A DNA stretch of 44,724 nt from NCBI GenBank assembly GCA_022969215.1, contig JALJPA010000010.1, forward strand, positions 1 through 44,724. Direction: 5' to 3'. The position numbers and the translations under genes were made by a program. The DNA comes from Colwellia sp. (GTDB taxonomy: Bacteria > Pseudomonadota > Gammaproteobacteria > Enterobacterales > Alteromonadaceae). Below are positions 2,956 through 8,781 of the stretch, in pieces. The notes beneath the pieces were generated by a model that was not told the DNA's origin, did no database searches, and was given only the letters and a program-made list of their open reading frames with translations. How positions within the stretch are numbered: the first letter of the stretch is position 1; the number at the start of each line of letters is the position of its first letter.

Positions 2956-4032
2956 CTAACTTACCTCAAGCTGATGCAGCTTTAATAAACTTGCCGGGGT
3001 AATTCCAAACTGTCTTTTAAATGCCGATGTGAAATTTGAAACATGATTATAGCCAGCTTGGTAACCAGCCTCGCTAATACTAAGCTCTTTTACGGTAATG
3101 GCTATCTTGGCTTTATCTAAACGATGTTGTCTAATATATTCATTGATAGTTTGACCGTAGGTTTGTTTGAAGTAGCGCTGCAAGCTAGAAATGCTTAAAC
3201 CAAATTGCTGAGCGATAGAGGATAGAGTAATTGTGTTTTCTAGCTCTTTTACTATATAGCGCTCAATATTCTTCTTTTTTCTCAGTAATTTTTTTTCTGT
3301 TCTTGCCTGTAATGCTTTACTTTCACCAACCGGCTGTAGAGGGTGCTCAATTTTATCAGTAAGTACCGACAATAAGTGAGTCAATAAACTATAAGCAATT
3401 TTCTCTTTGAGTATGTTGTTATATAAAGAATCCTCCGTAGGTAAACTTAATAATTGTTGTGCCAAAAGACTAAACTCTTTGTTGTCTTGCCATCGATAAA
3501 GTGCGTTATGTCGGCTAAAGACTCTCTTAAGTAATGCTTTATCTTTAGCATCAGTGCAGCGTTTTTCTAACCACGAACGTTTGATAAATAAATTAACTTT
3601 TCTAACCTGTTGACCCTTAATTATTTTTCGGCTCAACAAGTCACTCTTTGTCAACACGCCTACCGCACAAATGGCGGTTATTGGCTGGTCAATTTCTTCA
3701 GCAGATTTCATTTTATCTAACTTACTGGTATTAAGTTCATAAGCTTTACTGCCTAAACAAAAGTTTAAGCTACCTTTAAGCAAAATATTAAGGCTCAAAC
3801 TTGCCGGTATTTGTGTAGAGCTGATGCCATCGTTGGACTCAATAACATCGCCGCCGTGAATACTTAGACCGGAAGATAATTCATTATGAAAGAAATGTCC
3901 GTTCATAACGTTGCTTTTGCTATCACGAATTACCAGTTTATTGGTTAAGCCCAATGAAGAGATAAGGCTAGAAAAAGCTTGGCTATTTATGTTTATGGGT
4001 GAACCCTTTATCGGTGAGTGAACTTTCATCAT
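2956..4032 (-). CDS. AraC family transcriptional regulator (PchR-like)
   Basis: C-terminal AraC HTH: SSIAQQFGLSISSLQRYFKQTYGQTINEYIRQHRLDKAKIAI...SEAGYQAGYNHVSNFTSAFKRQFGITP. Confidence 0.88.
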   Translation of the reverse strand: MMKVHSPIKGSPININSQAFSSLISSLGLTNKLVIRDSKSNVMNGHFFHNELSSGLSIHGGDVIESNDGISSTQIPASLSLNILLKGSLNFCLGSKAYELNTSKLDKMKSAEEIDQPITAICAVGVLTKSDLLSRKIIKGQQVRKVNLFIKRSWLEKRCTDAKDKALLKRVFSRHNALYRWQDNKEFSLLAQQLLSLPTEDSLYNNILKEKIAYSLLTHLLSVLTDKIEHPLQPVGESKALQARTEKKLLRKKKNIERYIVKELENTITLSSIAQQFGLSISSLQRYFKQTYGQTINEYIRQHRLDKAKIAITVKELSISEAGYQAGYNHVSNFTSAFKRQFGITPASLLKLHQLEVS

Positions 4033-4113: not shown

Positions 4114-4134
4114 ATAATAATGAGAATCATTATC
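4114..4134. promoter_or_regulatory. Fur box upstream of TonB receptor / divergent AraC gene
   Basis: AATAATGAGAATCATTATC (4116-4134) matches the classical 19-bp GATAATGATAATCATTATC at 17 positions. Confidence 0.85.
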
Positions 4135-4178: not shown

Positions 4179-6326
4179 ATGAACGGTAAACCATTTGCTA
4201 AATGCGCGTTCGCATTGGCAATATCAAGCCTTTTCACCAGCCAAGCTATTTATGCTAACGAAAAATCATCACCAAAAGATGCTAAGAACGTGGATGCAAC
4301 TAAAGCCATTGAACGTGTACAGGTATGGGGTACAGAAGTTAAATCTTCATCTGTTTATATGGGCGGTACTGCTATTGAAACTAAGCAGGCCGATCATATC
4401 AGTGATTTATTACGGACTATTCCAGGTGTTGATGTCGGCGGCGCGCACTCCTTAAATCAGCGTATTACCATTCGTAGTATGGATGATAAAGATTTAACCA
4501 TAACCATTGATGGCGCCAATCAAAATACTTATATGTATCACCATATGGGTAACCTACAAATTCATGCCGATATTTTAAAATCTGTTGATATTGAAGTAGG
4601 TAGTAACTCAGTTATTAATGGCGGCTTAGGCGGGGCTGTTCATTTCGAAACCAAAGAAGCAAAAGACTTACTTGCCGAGGGCGAAACATTTGGTGGTCGT
4701 GTTCAAGGAAGTTATGCAGGGAATTCATCTTCAGGCCTTTCATTCACGGGTTATGGTCAACTAAGTGATAATTTTGACTTTTTAGCCTATTACAATTTTG
4801 TTGATAGAGACAATTACACCGTCGGTGGCGGTAAGATACTTGATGCTAACGGTAATGAAGTGCCGGGTACTTCTGGGGAAGTGGCAGGTCTTGAAGGGGA
4901 AGTTAAAGATGCACTCATTAAGTTTGGTTGGGATCTCGATGCCGAGCAACGTTTTGAGGTGGGTTATGAGTCGTATCAAGACAAAGGTGATTATAGCTAT
5001 CGCCCTGATATGGGCTTAGCTACGGATACTGCTATCACCCAATCTTTACAAGTACCTTTGTTATGGCCGACTGAGTTTACTCGAGAAACCTTAACCTTAA
5101 ACTATGATGCTAACTGGGGCGAAAGCTCAAGTGTCAAGGCAGCTTTGTTTGCTAATGAAAGTGAATTAAATCGTGACGAAAGTGGTTGGGCACAAAACCC
5201 AAAGTTTGCTGGCTGGGCAGGGGATATTACTGGTACTGCAACCAATACAGGCTTGCACGTTATCGCTAACTCTTTACTGGGGGAGCTCATTGAGCATGAG
5301 CTGACTTACGGTTTGGATGTGGTGAAATATAAAACTGACTACCGTGCATCTTTATTAAATGGCTCAGTCAATCAATCTAAGGAACAAGCAGTAAACAGTT
5401 CTGCTTTTCTTGAAGATAACATTGATTTCGGTAATGGTTTTGTTGTTATTCCGGGTGTGCGTTATGACAGTTATGATATTGCATCGGCAGTTGTTGATAA
5501 TACCTTTAATCAATTTTCAGCAGCCTTAGCTGCACAGTATACCTTTGCTAATAGCTTTATTGTTAAAGCCAGTAGTACTCAGCTCTTTAAAGGCCCTGAA
5601 ATTGGCGAAGTATTTACCGGCGCTGGCTCACGTGATAACGCGAATAAAAATATTGCAGCAGAAACAGGATTTAACCATGAATTAGCCTTTGCTTATGAAG
5701 ATGGTGTTTTAGGCGCGGATTCATTCACTGCGGGCTTAACATTATTTAAAACCCAAATTGATGATTATATTTATGATCATGCACAGCTACCCGATGGCGG
5801 GCCAAGAGATACTTGGAAAGACAATATCGGCGATATGGAAATTGATGGTTTTGAATTTTATACCGGTTATGCACTTGGCAAGTTAAAACTACAATTGACT
5901 TACTCTGTTGCGGAAAGTGAATTAAGCGCTTTTGAGCAATACTCGTCTCTTGATGGTGGCAGGCTTGATCGCCAACAAGGCGACACCATCAGTGCCGCGG
6001 TTGATTACCGCTTCACTGATTTCGACCTTGCCCTGCACTGGGATATGTTAATGGTTGATGATCTTGAAGATGGCTTAGCTATTGATGGCGCTTCAGTTGA
6101 TAACTCAAAAATGAGCTTCGCAGTACACAACCTATCAATTAGTTGGCAGCCAGAGCAACTTGATGGCTTGAGTGTTATTTTTGGTATTGATAATGTTTTT
6201 GACGAGTTTTATGCATCTCAGTCATCACATACTGGTCTTTCAAATCATCCACTTTTTGGTGAGCTTTATTTAATGGATTATGAGCCAGGTAGAAATGTTA
6301 AGGCGACTATAGCGTATCAGTTCTAA
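4179..6326 (+). CDS. TonB-dependent outer-membrane receptor (iron/siderophore or heme class)
   Basis: Signal peptide, plug domain (ISDLLRTIPGVDVGG...QRITIRSMDDKDLTITIDG), beta-barrel with terminal ...NVKATIAYQF. Confidence 0.92.
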   Translation: MNGKPFAKCAFALAISSLFTSQAIYANEKSSPKDAKNVDATKAIERVQVWGTEVKSSSVYMGGTAIETKQADHISDLLRTIPGVDVGGAHSLNQRITIRSMDDKDLTITIDGANQNTYMYHHMGNLQIHADILKSVDIEVGSNSVINGGLGGAVHFETKEAKDLLAEGETFGGRVQGSYAGNSSSGLSFTGYGQLSDNFDFLAYYNFVDRDNYTVGGGKILDANGNEVPGTSGEVAGLEGEVKDALIKFGWDLDAEQRFEVGYESYQDKGDYSYRPDMGLATDTAITQSLQVPLLWPTEFTRETLTLNYDANWGESSSVKAALFANESELNRDESGWAQNPKFAGWAGDITGTATNTGLHVIANSLLGELIEHELTYGLDVVKYKTDYRASLLNGSVNQSKEQAVNSSAFLEDNIDFGNGFVVIPGVRYDSYDIASAVVDNTFNQFSAALAAQYTFANSFIVKASSTQLFKGPEIGEVFTGAGSRDNANKNIAAETGFNHELAFAYEDGVLGADSFTAGLTLFKTQIDDYIYDHAQLPDGGPRDTWKDNIGDMEIDGFEFYTGYALGKLKLQLTYSVAESELSAFEQYSSLDGGRLDRQQGDTISAAVDYRFTDFDLALHWDMLMVDDLEDGLAIDGASVDNSKMSFAVHNLSISWQPEQLDGLSVIFGIDNVFDEFYASQSSHTGLSNHPLFGELYLMDYEPGRNVKATIAYQF

Positions 6327-6522: not shown

Positions 6523-7227
6523 ATGAAAAAACGTTCAACTAAATTTAGACAAAACTCAGCAGACTTATTAAAGCGCCCTGCCAGAAAAGCAGGTGTTAAA
6601 TATTGGCAGTGGACTAAAAGCTCACTGGCTAAAAAAATGTTTTCGCTAAGTCGCTGGCTACATATTTACGTATCAACAGTGCTATTTAGCTTGTTGGTGT
6701 TTTTTTGCTTCACTGGCATAACCTTAAATCACGCCGCTTGGTTTTCAGCTGACGGGGAGGAGCAGCTCAAAATAGAGCCCTTACCACAATCATTATTAAC
6801 CTCACTTAATAATGATGACGAGTTAGCACTTTTTAATCTACAAAAATACGTTGAAAAGCTAATTGGCCTTGAGCAGGTGCGTAGCATTGACGTAGATAAG
6901 GTAGTGGCAGAAATCAGCTTTGATTATCCCATTCCTGCTGGTTATGTATTTGTCACAGTTTATCTAGATACCAGTGAAATAGAAATTGAGCAAAAATCGG
7001 GCTCGTTAATAAGTTTGCTTAATGACCTTCATAAAGGCCGCCACAGCGGCGAATTTTGGTCATGGCTTATTGATATCAGTGCTGGCCTAATGTTGCTTTT
7101 TTCGATTACTGGTTTGGTCATCTTATTGCAAAACAATAAACGCCGCGCTAAGGGCGTTATGTATATTTTACTAGGCAGTATTGCACCATGGTTGGCGTAT
7201 TTACTTTGGGTACCAAGAATCAGTTAA
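6523..7227 (+). CDS. PepSY-associated TM helix protein
   Basis: SRWLHIYVSTVLFSLLVFFCFTGITLNH N-terminal helix, periplasmic PepSY-like segment, LNDLHKGRHSGEFWSWLIDISAGLMLLFSITGLVILL; typical PepSY_TM architecture. Confidence 0.8.
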   Translation: MKKRSTKFRQNSADLLKRPARKAGVKYWQWTKSSLAKKMFSLSRWLHIYVSTVLFSLLVFFCFTGITLNHAAWFSADGEEQLKIEPLPQSLLTSLNNDDELALFNLQKYVEKLIGLEQVRSIDVDKVVAEISFDYPIPAGYVFVTVYLDTSEIEIEQKSGSLISLLNDLHKGRHSGEFWSWLIDISAGLMLLFSITGLVILLQNNKRRAKGVMYILLGSIAPWLAYLLWVPRIS

Positions 7228-7274: not shown

Positions 7275-7784
7275 ATGAAAACAGATTTATCAGGACTGGC
7301 CGCAATGGCTTTTGTCTGGATATTACTTGCCTCACCTGTGAGCCAAGCCGAACAAATATCGGTAGAAATCACTATTCCTAAAATTAATAGCCAACCGTAT
7401 CATAAGCCTTATGTTGCCGTTTGGTTAGAGTCTGCACAGCGCAAAGGTGTTCATACTTTAGCTTTTTGGCATGAACAAAAAGACTGGTATAAAGACGTAA
7501 GGCAATGGTGGCGAAAAATTGGCCGGCAGCAAAGCCCTATATACGATCAAGTCACAGGCGCGACACGAAAACCAGGTACCTACACCCTTAAAATTGATAA
7601 CAAAGAATTAACTAAACTAAACCTTATTCCAGGGGAGTATTTCCTCAATGTTGAAGCGGTTAGAGAGGAAGGGGGCAGGGAGTTCATCCGACAGAAAATT
7701 GTCATTGGCGCCAGGGAAGTTAAACACTATGAAAAGTCAGGGCAGCATGAACTCGGTAAGGTAGCGATAAAGGTTATGCCTTAA
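7275..7784 (+). CDS. DUF2271-like periplasmic protein with DxxTGAT flavinylation-type motif
   Basis: Start moved from 7188 to MKTDLSG, which follows an AGAGAG RBS and begins a signal peptide. VEITIPKI...PYVAVWLE...TLAFWHE...WRKIGR...YDQVTGATRKPGTYTLKID pattern of DUF2271. Confidence 0.75.
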   Translation: MKTDLSGLAAMAFVWILLASPVSQAEQISVEITIPKINSQPYHKPYVAVWLESAQRKGVHTLAFWHEQKDWYKDVRQWWRKIGRQQSPIYDQVTGATRKPGTYTLKIDNKELTKLNLIPGEYFLNVEAVREEGGREFIRQKIVIGAREVKHYEKSGQHELGKVAIKVMP

Positions 7785-7887: not shown

Positions 7888-8781
7888 ATGTTATCAGTTT
7901 CAAAGCTTACTAAAGTTATAGCTGCAAAAGGCAGTACGATTAAAGCACTCGCTACACTCACACTGGCCTTGCTATTGCCACTTAAGGCTATTGCCCATGA
8001 GCGATTTATTTTACCTAGCCATACTATTTTATCAGGGGATAAGAGACAATCGGTTAGTTTTATTGCCAGTATTTCCAATGAAATCTTCCATGGTGATAGA
8101 CCATTAGGTGACAATGGTAAGGGCGTTTCTGTGCCCGAACTGGCACCGCTCTTTAAACAATTGAAGCCAGTTGTTATTGGTCCTGATGGCGCGCGTCGTG
8201 ATATGAGTTGGCAAGCATTTTCACGTTTCTCTGTCGCAGATGCTCACTTTAAAGTGGCAGGTACTTACCGTATAGCACTAGTGCAGCCCAATGTACCTAT
8301 GACTACTTTTACTAAGGTTGATGGAAGTAAAGGTCGATTTTTTGGTAATCAAGGTGAAGTACCTGCTGGCGCGAGTAATATTGTAAAAAGAACAACCGCA
8401 TCAAGAGTTGAAACTTATGTCAGCTTTAATCAGCCAAATAATAGGGCGTTACAATCTACCGGAGAAGGACTGGAACTCGCAGGTAAAACTCACCCAAATG
8501 ATTTATTTGTTGATGAAGTACTGAGTTTTCAGCTTATGTTCGAAGGAAAGCAGTTAAAACAAGCAACTAAAGTTAAAGTGGTTCAAGGGGCTACTCGCCA
8601 TAGAAACCAACGTGATGAGCAGGTTATTAAAACTGATGACCAAGGAATGTTCTCATTAACTATTGCTGAGGCAGGATTTTACTTATTGTCTGCCAATATT
8701 GATGTTAAAGGTAAACTAGGTAGTAATATTGATATACATCACTACGGCTTATACGCCACATTGGAAGTTTTTCTACAATAG
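7888..8781 (+). CDS. DUF4198-like periplasmic protein (NikK/metal-uptake-associated family)
   Basis: Signal peptide then AHERFILPSHTILSGDKRQSVSFIASISNEIFHGDRPL... and C-terminal Ig-like region; typical DUF4198 N-terminus. Confidence 0.78.
   Translation: MLSVSKLTKVIAAKGSTIKALATLTLALLLPLKAIAHERFILPSHTILSGDKRQSVSFIASISNEIFHGDRPLGDNGKGVSVPELAPLFKQLKPVVIGPDGARRDMSWQAFSRFSVADAHFKVAGTYRIALVQPNVPMTTFTKVDGSKGRFFGNQGEVPAGASNIVKRTTASRVETYVSFNQPNNRALQSTGEGLELAGKTHPNDLFVDEVLSFQLMFEGKQLKQATKVKVVQGATRHRNQRDEQVIKTDDQGMFSLTIAEAGFYLLSANIDVKGKLGSNIDIHHYGLYATLEVFLQ

Follow-up and report, generated by a model that had tools for sequence, protein, structure and literature searches.

Can a protein that carries a motif for covalent flavin attachment be flavinylated when no flavin transferase gene lies near its own? 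This question is raised by a small DUF2271 protein in which the sequence DQVTGAT resembles the attachment sites used by ApbE, the enzyme that transfers FMN to Thr or Ser residues. We addressed the question at three levels: the 44.7-kb window that contains the gene (the whole stretch of DNA analysed, 44,724 nucleotides), the remainder of the genome, and a broad sample of relatives.

A predicted FMN attachment motif in a DUF2271 protein

The preliminary description had placed DQVTGAT in a DUF2271-like protein that bears a signal peptide and is encoded beside a PepSY membrane protein; the family, the motif and the PepSY neighbour were borne out, and export is probable. Translation of the 169-residue frame (...SPIYDQVTGATRKPG...) reproduces the motif exactly, as residues D91–T97 in the local context Y-D-Q-V-T-G-A-T-R (Table 1). 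The protein matches PF10029 (DUF2271) over residues 28–161 with a score of 143.1 bits, against a curated cut-off of 27.3, and a Sec-type signal peptide can be recognized by eye (MKTDLSGLAAMAFVWILLASPVSQA/EQ). An upstream ATG at position 7188 is the start given in the list of open reading frames and lies within the PepSY gene. The ATG at 7275 is the better start because the ribosome-binding-like sequence AGAAAGAGAG precedes it and the putative signal peptide follows immediately.

Table 1 Features of the locus and its predicted FMN attachment site
Feature	Position	Strand	Description	Basis
AraC-family regulator	2956..4032	-	divergent, 358 aa	PF12833 E 1.3e-21
Fur-box-like site	4116..4134	.	AATAATGAGAATCATTATC	17/19 to consensus GATAATGATAATCATTATC
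TonB-dependent outer-membrane receptor	4179..6326	+	715 aa, heme-receptor-like	PF00593 E 2.8e-34, PF07715
PepSY-like membrane protein	6523..7227	+	234 aa, predicted to bind haem and conduct electrons across the membrane	PF16357 E 6.1e-51, PF03929 E 1.1e-9
DUF2271 protein	7275..7784	+	169 aa with a putative signal peptide; predicted to be flavinylated and to carry electrons in the periplasm	PF10029 E 5.9e-42
DQVTGAT	7545..7565	+	predicted site of FMN attachment, with T97 (codon 7563-7565) as acceptor	direct reading
DUF4198 secreted protein	7888..8781	+	297 aa	PF10670 E 2.6e-34

The motif is the single match to D..[ST]GA[ST] among the 14,044 residues of the window's open frames of at least 100 aa, and the same pattern arises in 35 of 200,000 shuffles of the DUF2271 protein. 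A chance origin was rejected on these shuffle counts together with the conservation of the acceptor residue described below. An AlphaFold model computed from the single DUF2271 sequence was poor (mean pLDDT 57.5) and was set aside, and a search of solved structures with the DUF2271 profile returned weak FlgD Ig-like matches alone.

Conservation of the acceptor residue and separation of apbE

The host belongs to the family Alteromonadaceae, order Enterobacterales, class Gammaproteobacteria and phylum Pseudomonadota (GTDB). The search for DUF2271 covered the family (150 genomes, 62 over the cut-off), the class (274 genomes) and the phylum (399 genomes, 65 over the cut-off). Neighbourhoods of ~18 kb were collected for 111 loci outside this genome, and the DUF2271 sequences from 109 of them were aligned.

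Conservation of the motif threonine in orthologues had been set beforehand as a test on which the flavinylation proposal could fail. The proposal withstood it: the acceptor position is Thr or Ser in all 110 aligned sequences (109 relatives and the window sequence). Both the motif D and the acceptor T/S are found in 66/66 family sequences, and D, A and the acceptor T/S are kept at 71/71 order loci, as in the majority of lineages where apbE adjoins DUF2271. The Dxx[S/T]GA[S/T] consensus on which the proposal was built applies in full to the protein in this window but proved too strict for the order as a whole, in which G is replaced by S or A in 23 of the 71 sequences to give the variants DxxTSAT and DxxTAAT. 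Because of this replacement, strict pattern searches undercount the motif. Indeed, a strict regular expression gave the appearance of motif loss in many relatives, a reading that was rejected by alignment: D, A and the acceptor are kept, and the variant relatives differ from the strict motif solely by S/A for G, or by A for the first S/T. DUF2271 proteins with the G-variant motif were seen at L040, L041, L054, L060, L061, L064, L080, L088 and other loci.

The position of apbE follows a different pattern. Outside the order, DUF2271 has a separate apbE beside it at 32 of 38 loci; inside the order, this is so at 0 of 71 (Fisher P ~7e-22, uncorrected for relatedness). PepSY and DUF2271 occur in one open frame in six relatives. 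Two of the 71 order loci encode divergent ApbE–DUF2271 fusions (L093:9294-10622(-) and L099:7885-9426(+)), whose ApbE parts score 42 and 59 bits and whose DUF2271 parts score more than 125 bits; each may be a transferase that modifies itself, or else an inactive transferase joined to its substrate.

Where, then, would the transferase come from? ApbE is present in every sampled family genome and in 65/65 phylum-sample genomes that have an over-cut-off DUF2271, versus 293/399 overall (two lists compared by reading). Inside the order such co-occurrence carries little weight, because ApbE is almost universal there. Among 20 relatives with DUF2271 and a single apbE, that gene comes directly after nqrF in 19, and in the exception (G036) it comes after a LysR-type gene. 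Taken together, the comparative counts indicate that the motif is retained where the sole ApbE available is distant and usually nqr-linked.

A different account of these data is that the motif is kept for structure, and that this DUF2271 lineage has been unflavinylated since it lost its neighbouring apbE. The complete lack of separate neighbouring apbE genes in the order and the relaxation at the motif G would both be expected on this account. The retention of D, A and the acceptor at every order locus argues against it, as do the full canonical motif in the protein of this window, the continued adjacency or fusion of PepSY and DUF2271, and the presence of ApbE throughout the sampled family. 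We consider a purely structural role very improbable.

Candidate flavin transferases elsewhere in the genome

A PF02424 search found no apbE within the 44.7-kb window, in agreement with the earlier remark that none is nearby. The genome-wide search that had been suggested with it found four apbE genes on other contigs, each over the PF02424 cut-off, so the notion of a genome without ApbE was rejected and the remark is correct only in its local sense. A fifth copy might be missing, because the assembly consists of 434 contigs and is 87% complete.

The first copy (L001/L036) lies directly after nqrF, which is the kind of location that had been foreseen for an ApbE encoded elsewhere. It carries a lipoprotein signal (judged by eye), and two frames upstream of it bear the NqrB motif DGFSGAT and the NqrC motif DALSGAT. 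The other three copies (L037, L038 and L039) each adjoin a gene for DUF3570, a published ApbE substrate (PMC8238504); one of these loci also has DsbD and a thioredoxin-like protein, and another has DUF4266 and a thioredoxin-like protein. FMN_bind matches number three in the genome, being located in the nqr cluster, in a 254-aa frame on contig C55 and in a 740-aa frame on contig C87.

One of the DUF3570-linked enzymes could flavinylate the DUF2271 protein in trans instead of the nqr-linked one, given that there are three such genes and that ApbE recognition works through a short motif. However, each of them adjoins its own DUF3570 substrate, and the motifs of these substrates end in Ser, whereas the DUF2271 protein has its acceptor Thr in common with NqrB and NqrC. 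Furthermore, the three DUF3570-linked enzymes show no obvious signal peptide (by eye), and the nqr-linked gene is the sole copy in all but one of the sampled single-apbE relatives, whose DUF2271 proteins bear the motif. This route is therefore unlikely. Judged by genomic position, signal peptide and acceptor residue, the nqr-linked ApbE is most likely the acting enzyme.

The L038 locus, on contig C428, holds additional genes with related motifs. Two paralogous predicted lipoproteins of 660 and 1024 aa (L038:7847-9829(-) and L038:12282-15356(-); 25% identity, E 3e-13) have an aligned IDG[FT]TGASE motif and cluster with apbE, DsbD, DUF3570 and a thioredoxin-like protein. The two lipoproteins are thus candidates for ApbE substrates that have yet to be described. 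Their motif region falls in no specific Pfam family, and the rest of the family sample gave weak homologues or none, with the motif found in 0 of 6 checked. The DUF3570 protein of the same locus (L038:9951-11270(-)) carries DSISGAS, DSITGAS and DAFTGAS in succession within ~30 residues, making three [ST]GAS motifs versus the two described for DUF3570.

Neighbouring genes and a Fur-like site

The gene order PepSY–DUF2271–DUF4198 is common to most relatives. Here, a gene matching PF16357 and PF03929 adjoins DUF2271. This agrees with the definition of PepSY-like clusters in a previous survey (Meheust 2021, eLife; PMC8238504), in which a PepSY-like gene (PF03929 or PF16357) is located close to a signal-peptide-bearing DUF2271, FMN-binding or ApbE gene. 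The 3220 clusters in that survey commonly include DUF2271 (2833) and DUF4198 (1500); a TonB receptor is occasional (231), and apbE is frequent in them although not obligatory. Fur repression of such clusters is known in Shewanella and Caulobacter, and a function in iron reduction has been proposed (PMC8238504). Similarly, DUF2271 and DUF4198 genes of Alteromonas are up under iron limitation (PMC7190382).

Three histidines of the PepSY-like protein (H47, H70 and H170) are invariant across 15 orthologues. This conservation would fit the expected haem-binding electron conduit, the class to which the protein is referred (PMC11334425); a search of solved structures with the PepSY profile gave no useful match. 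A permease function has been proposed for Alteromonas PepSY-domain proteins that are encoded near iron-responsive TonB receptors (PMC7190382). On that model, the PepSY protein here would be a siderophore permease and the DUF2271 protein its ligand-binding partner, with any redox activity being incidental. However, the protein encoded here, with its invariant histidines, belongs to the short PF16357 type, which is tied to VciB-type iron reduction and flavinylation (PMC8238504), and the flavinylation acceptor of its partner is likewise invariant. We regard the permease model as quite improbable and favour electron transfer.

The TonB-dependent receptor scores 263 bits (E 5.2e-78) against the TIGR01785 heme/hemoglobin family, which is below the curated cut-off of 316.85. 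The stretch corresponding to FRAP/NPNL, which we take to be the motifs of heme receptors, reads FKGP/NKNI. The ligand of this heme-receptor-type protein may be other than heme.

The divergent arrangement of the AraC-family regulator is also found at loci L042, L043, L050, L075 and L085. The intergenic region that separates the regulator gene from the receptor gene contains the best Fur-like site in the window (the next best scores 14/19), and none of 2000 shuffles of this region attains its score. Orthologous intergenic regions between AraC and TonB receptor genes (n = 5) carry Fur-like sites scoring 15–16/19. A gap of 196 bp separates the receptor gene from the PepSY gene, which makes a single transcript uncertain.

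A proposed ferric reductase module

These observations are well explained if the locus encodes an iron-repressed periplasmic ferric-reductase module in which the DUF2271 carrier receives its flavin in trans from the nqr-linked ApbE, an interpretation that we hold to be probable. In answer to the question posed at the outset, the small periplasmic DUF2271 protein probably carries a covalent flavin. The motif and its conservation, the gene order, the Fur-like site and the apbE genes with their number and positions were observed directly, and the literature documents ApbE modification of DUF2271 and iron/Fur regulation of PepSY-type clusters; we infer the flavinylation of this particular protein, as well as the acting ApbE, the electron flow and the substrate. 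If the model is correct, iron deprivation would lift Fur repression of the operon, and the TonB receptor would import an iron chelate. The PepSY-like protein, with haem on its conserved histidines, would carry electrons across the inner membrane to DUF2271, where they would be received by FMN in phosphoester linkage to T97. The DUF2271 protein, perhaps with DUF4198, would reduce periplasmic ferric iron or free it from its chelate. Flavinylation of T97 would be performed in trans by the periplasmic lipoprotein ApbE that is encoded directly downstream of nqrF.

A broader proposal is that, throughout the order, a PepSY/DUF2271 iron module without its own flavin transferase depends on the housekeeping Nqr-encoded ApbE, and that in about one third of lineages this ApbE accepts S/A in place of the motif G. 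We judge the chances of this broader proposal to be even. If true, maturation of an iron reductase would be tied to the respiratory flavinylation machinery, namely the ApbE of the sodium-pumping NADH:quinone oxidoreductase (Nqr). The findings offer an independent indication that DUF2271 flavinylation is possible without a neighbouring apbE. For species whose only apbE is nqr-linked, the prediction is that deletion of that gene would strip flavin from a periplasmic iron-uptake protein as well. Searches that use only apbE neighbourhoods would miss the clusters of this order unless DUF2271 serves as the query.

Comparison with known systems

Much of this picture is known already: published work has identified DUF2271 proteins as substrates of ApbE, located the target Thr and described PepSY/DUF2271/DUF4198 clusters, in some of which a TonB receptor is encoded. 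What is new, although only modestly so, is that apbE is separate from the PepSY/DUF2271 cluster across the order.

The DUF2271 protein of Amantichitinum ursilacus is flavinylated by its cognate ApbE, and a Thr-to-Ala change abolishes the modification (PMC8238504). The protein described here has the same PF10029 domain, [S/T]GA[S/T] sequence with a Thr acceptor, and probable secretion, but the cognate apbE is inside the cluster in A. ursilacus and is unlinked here. The published PepSY-like flavinylation clusters (PMC8238504) similarly share the gene set, with a TonB receptor and a Fur-like site, and differ in that apbE is absent from the cluster here, as it is throughout the sampled order.

The PepSY-like protein also has a counterpart in VciA/VciB of Vibrio cholerae, a TonB receptor and a PepSY-like ferric reductase, a likeness drawn by description. 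In V. cholerae, the TonB receptor gene adjoins that for VciB. A difference is that no flavinylation partners are reported for VciB (PMC8238504). The Caulobacter locus CCNA_03155-03159, which is a direct Fur target and is needed under EDTA (PMC11870441), has PepSY (COG3295), DUF2271 and DUF4198 genes in common with the present locus, along with iron/Fur regulation. The Caulobacter locus includes a gene for a flavin-dependent reductase, whereas the genes described here are accompanied by those for a TonB receptor and an AraC regulator.
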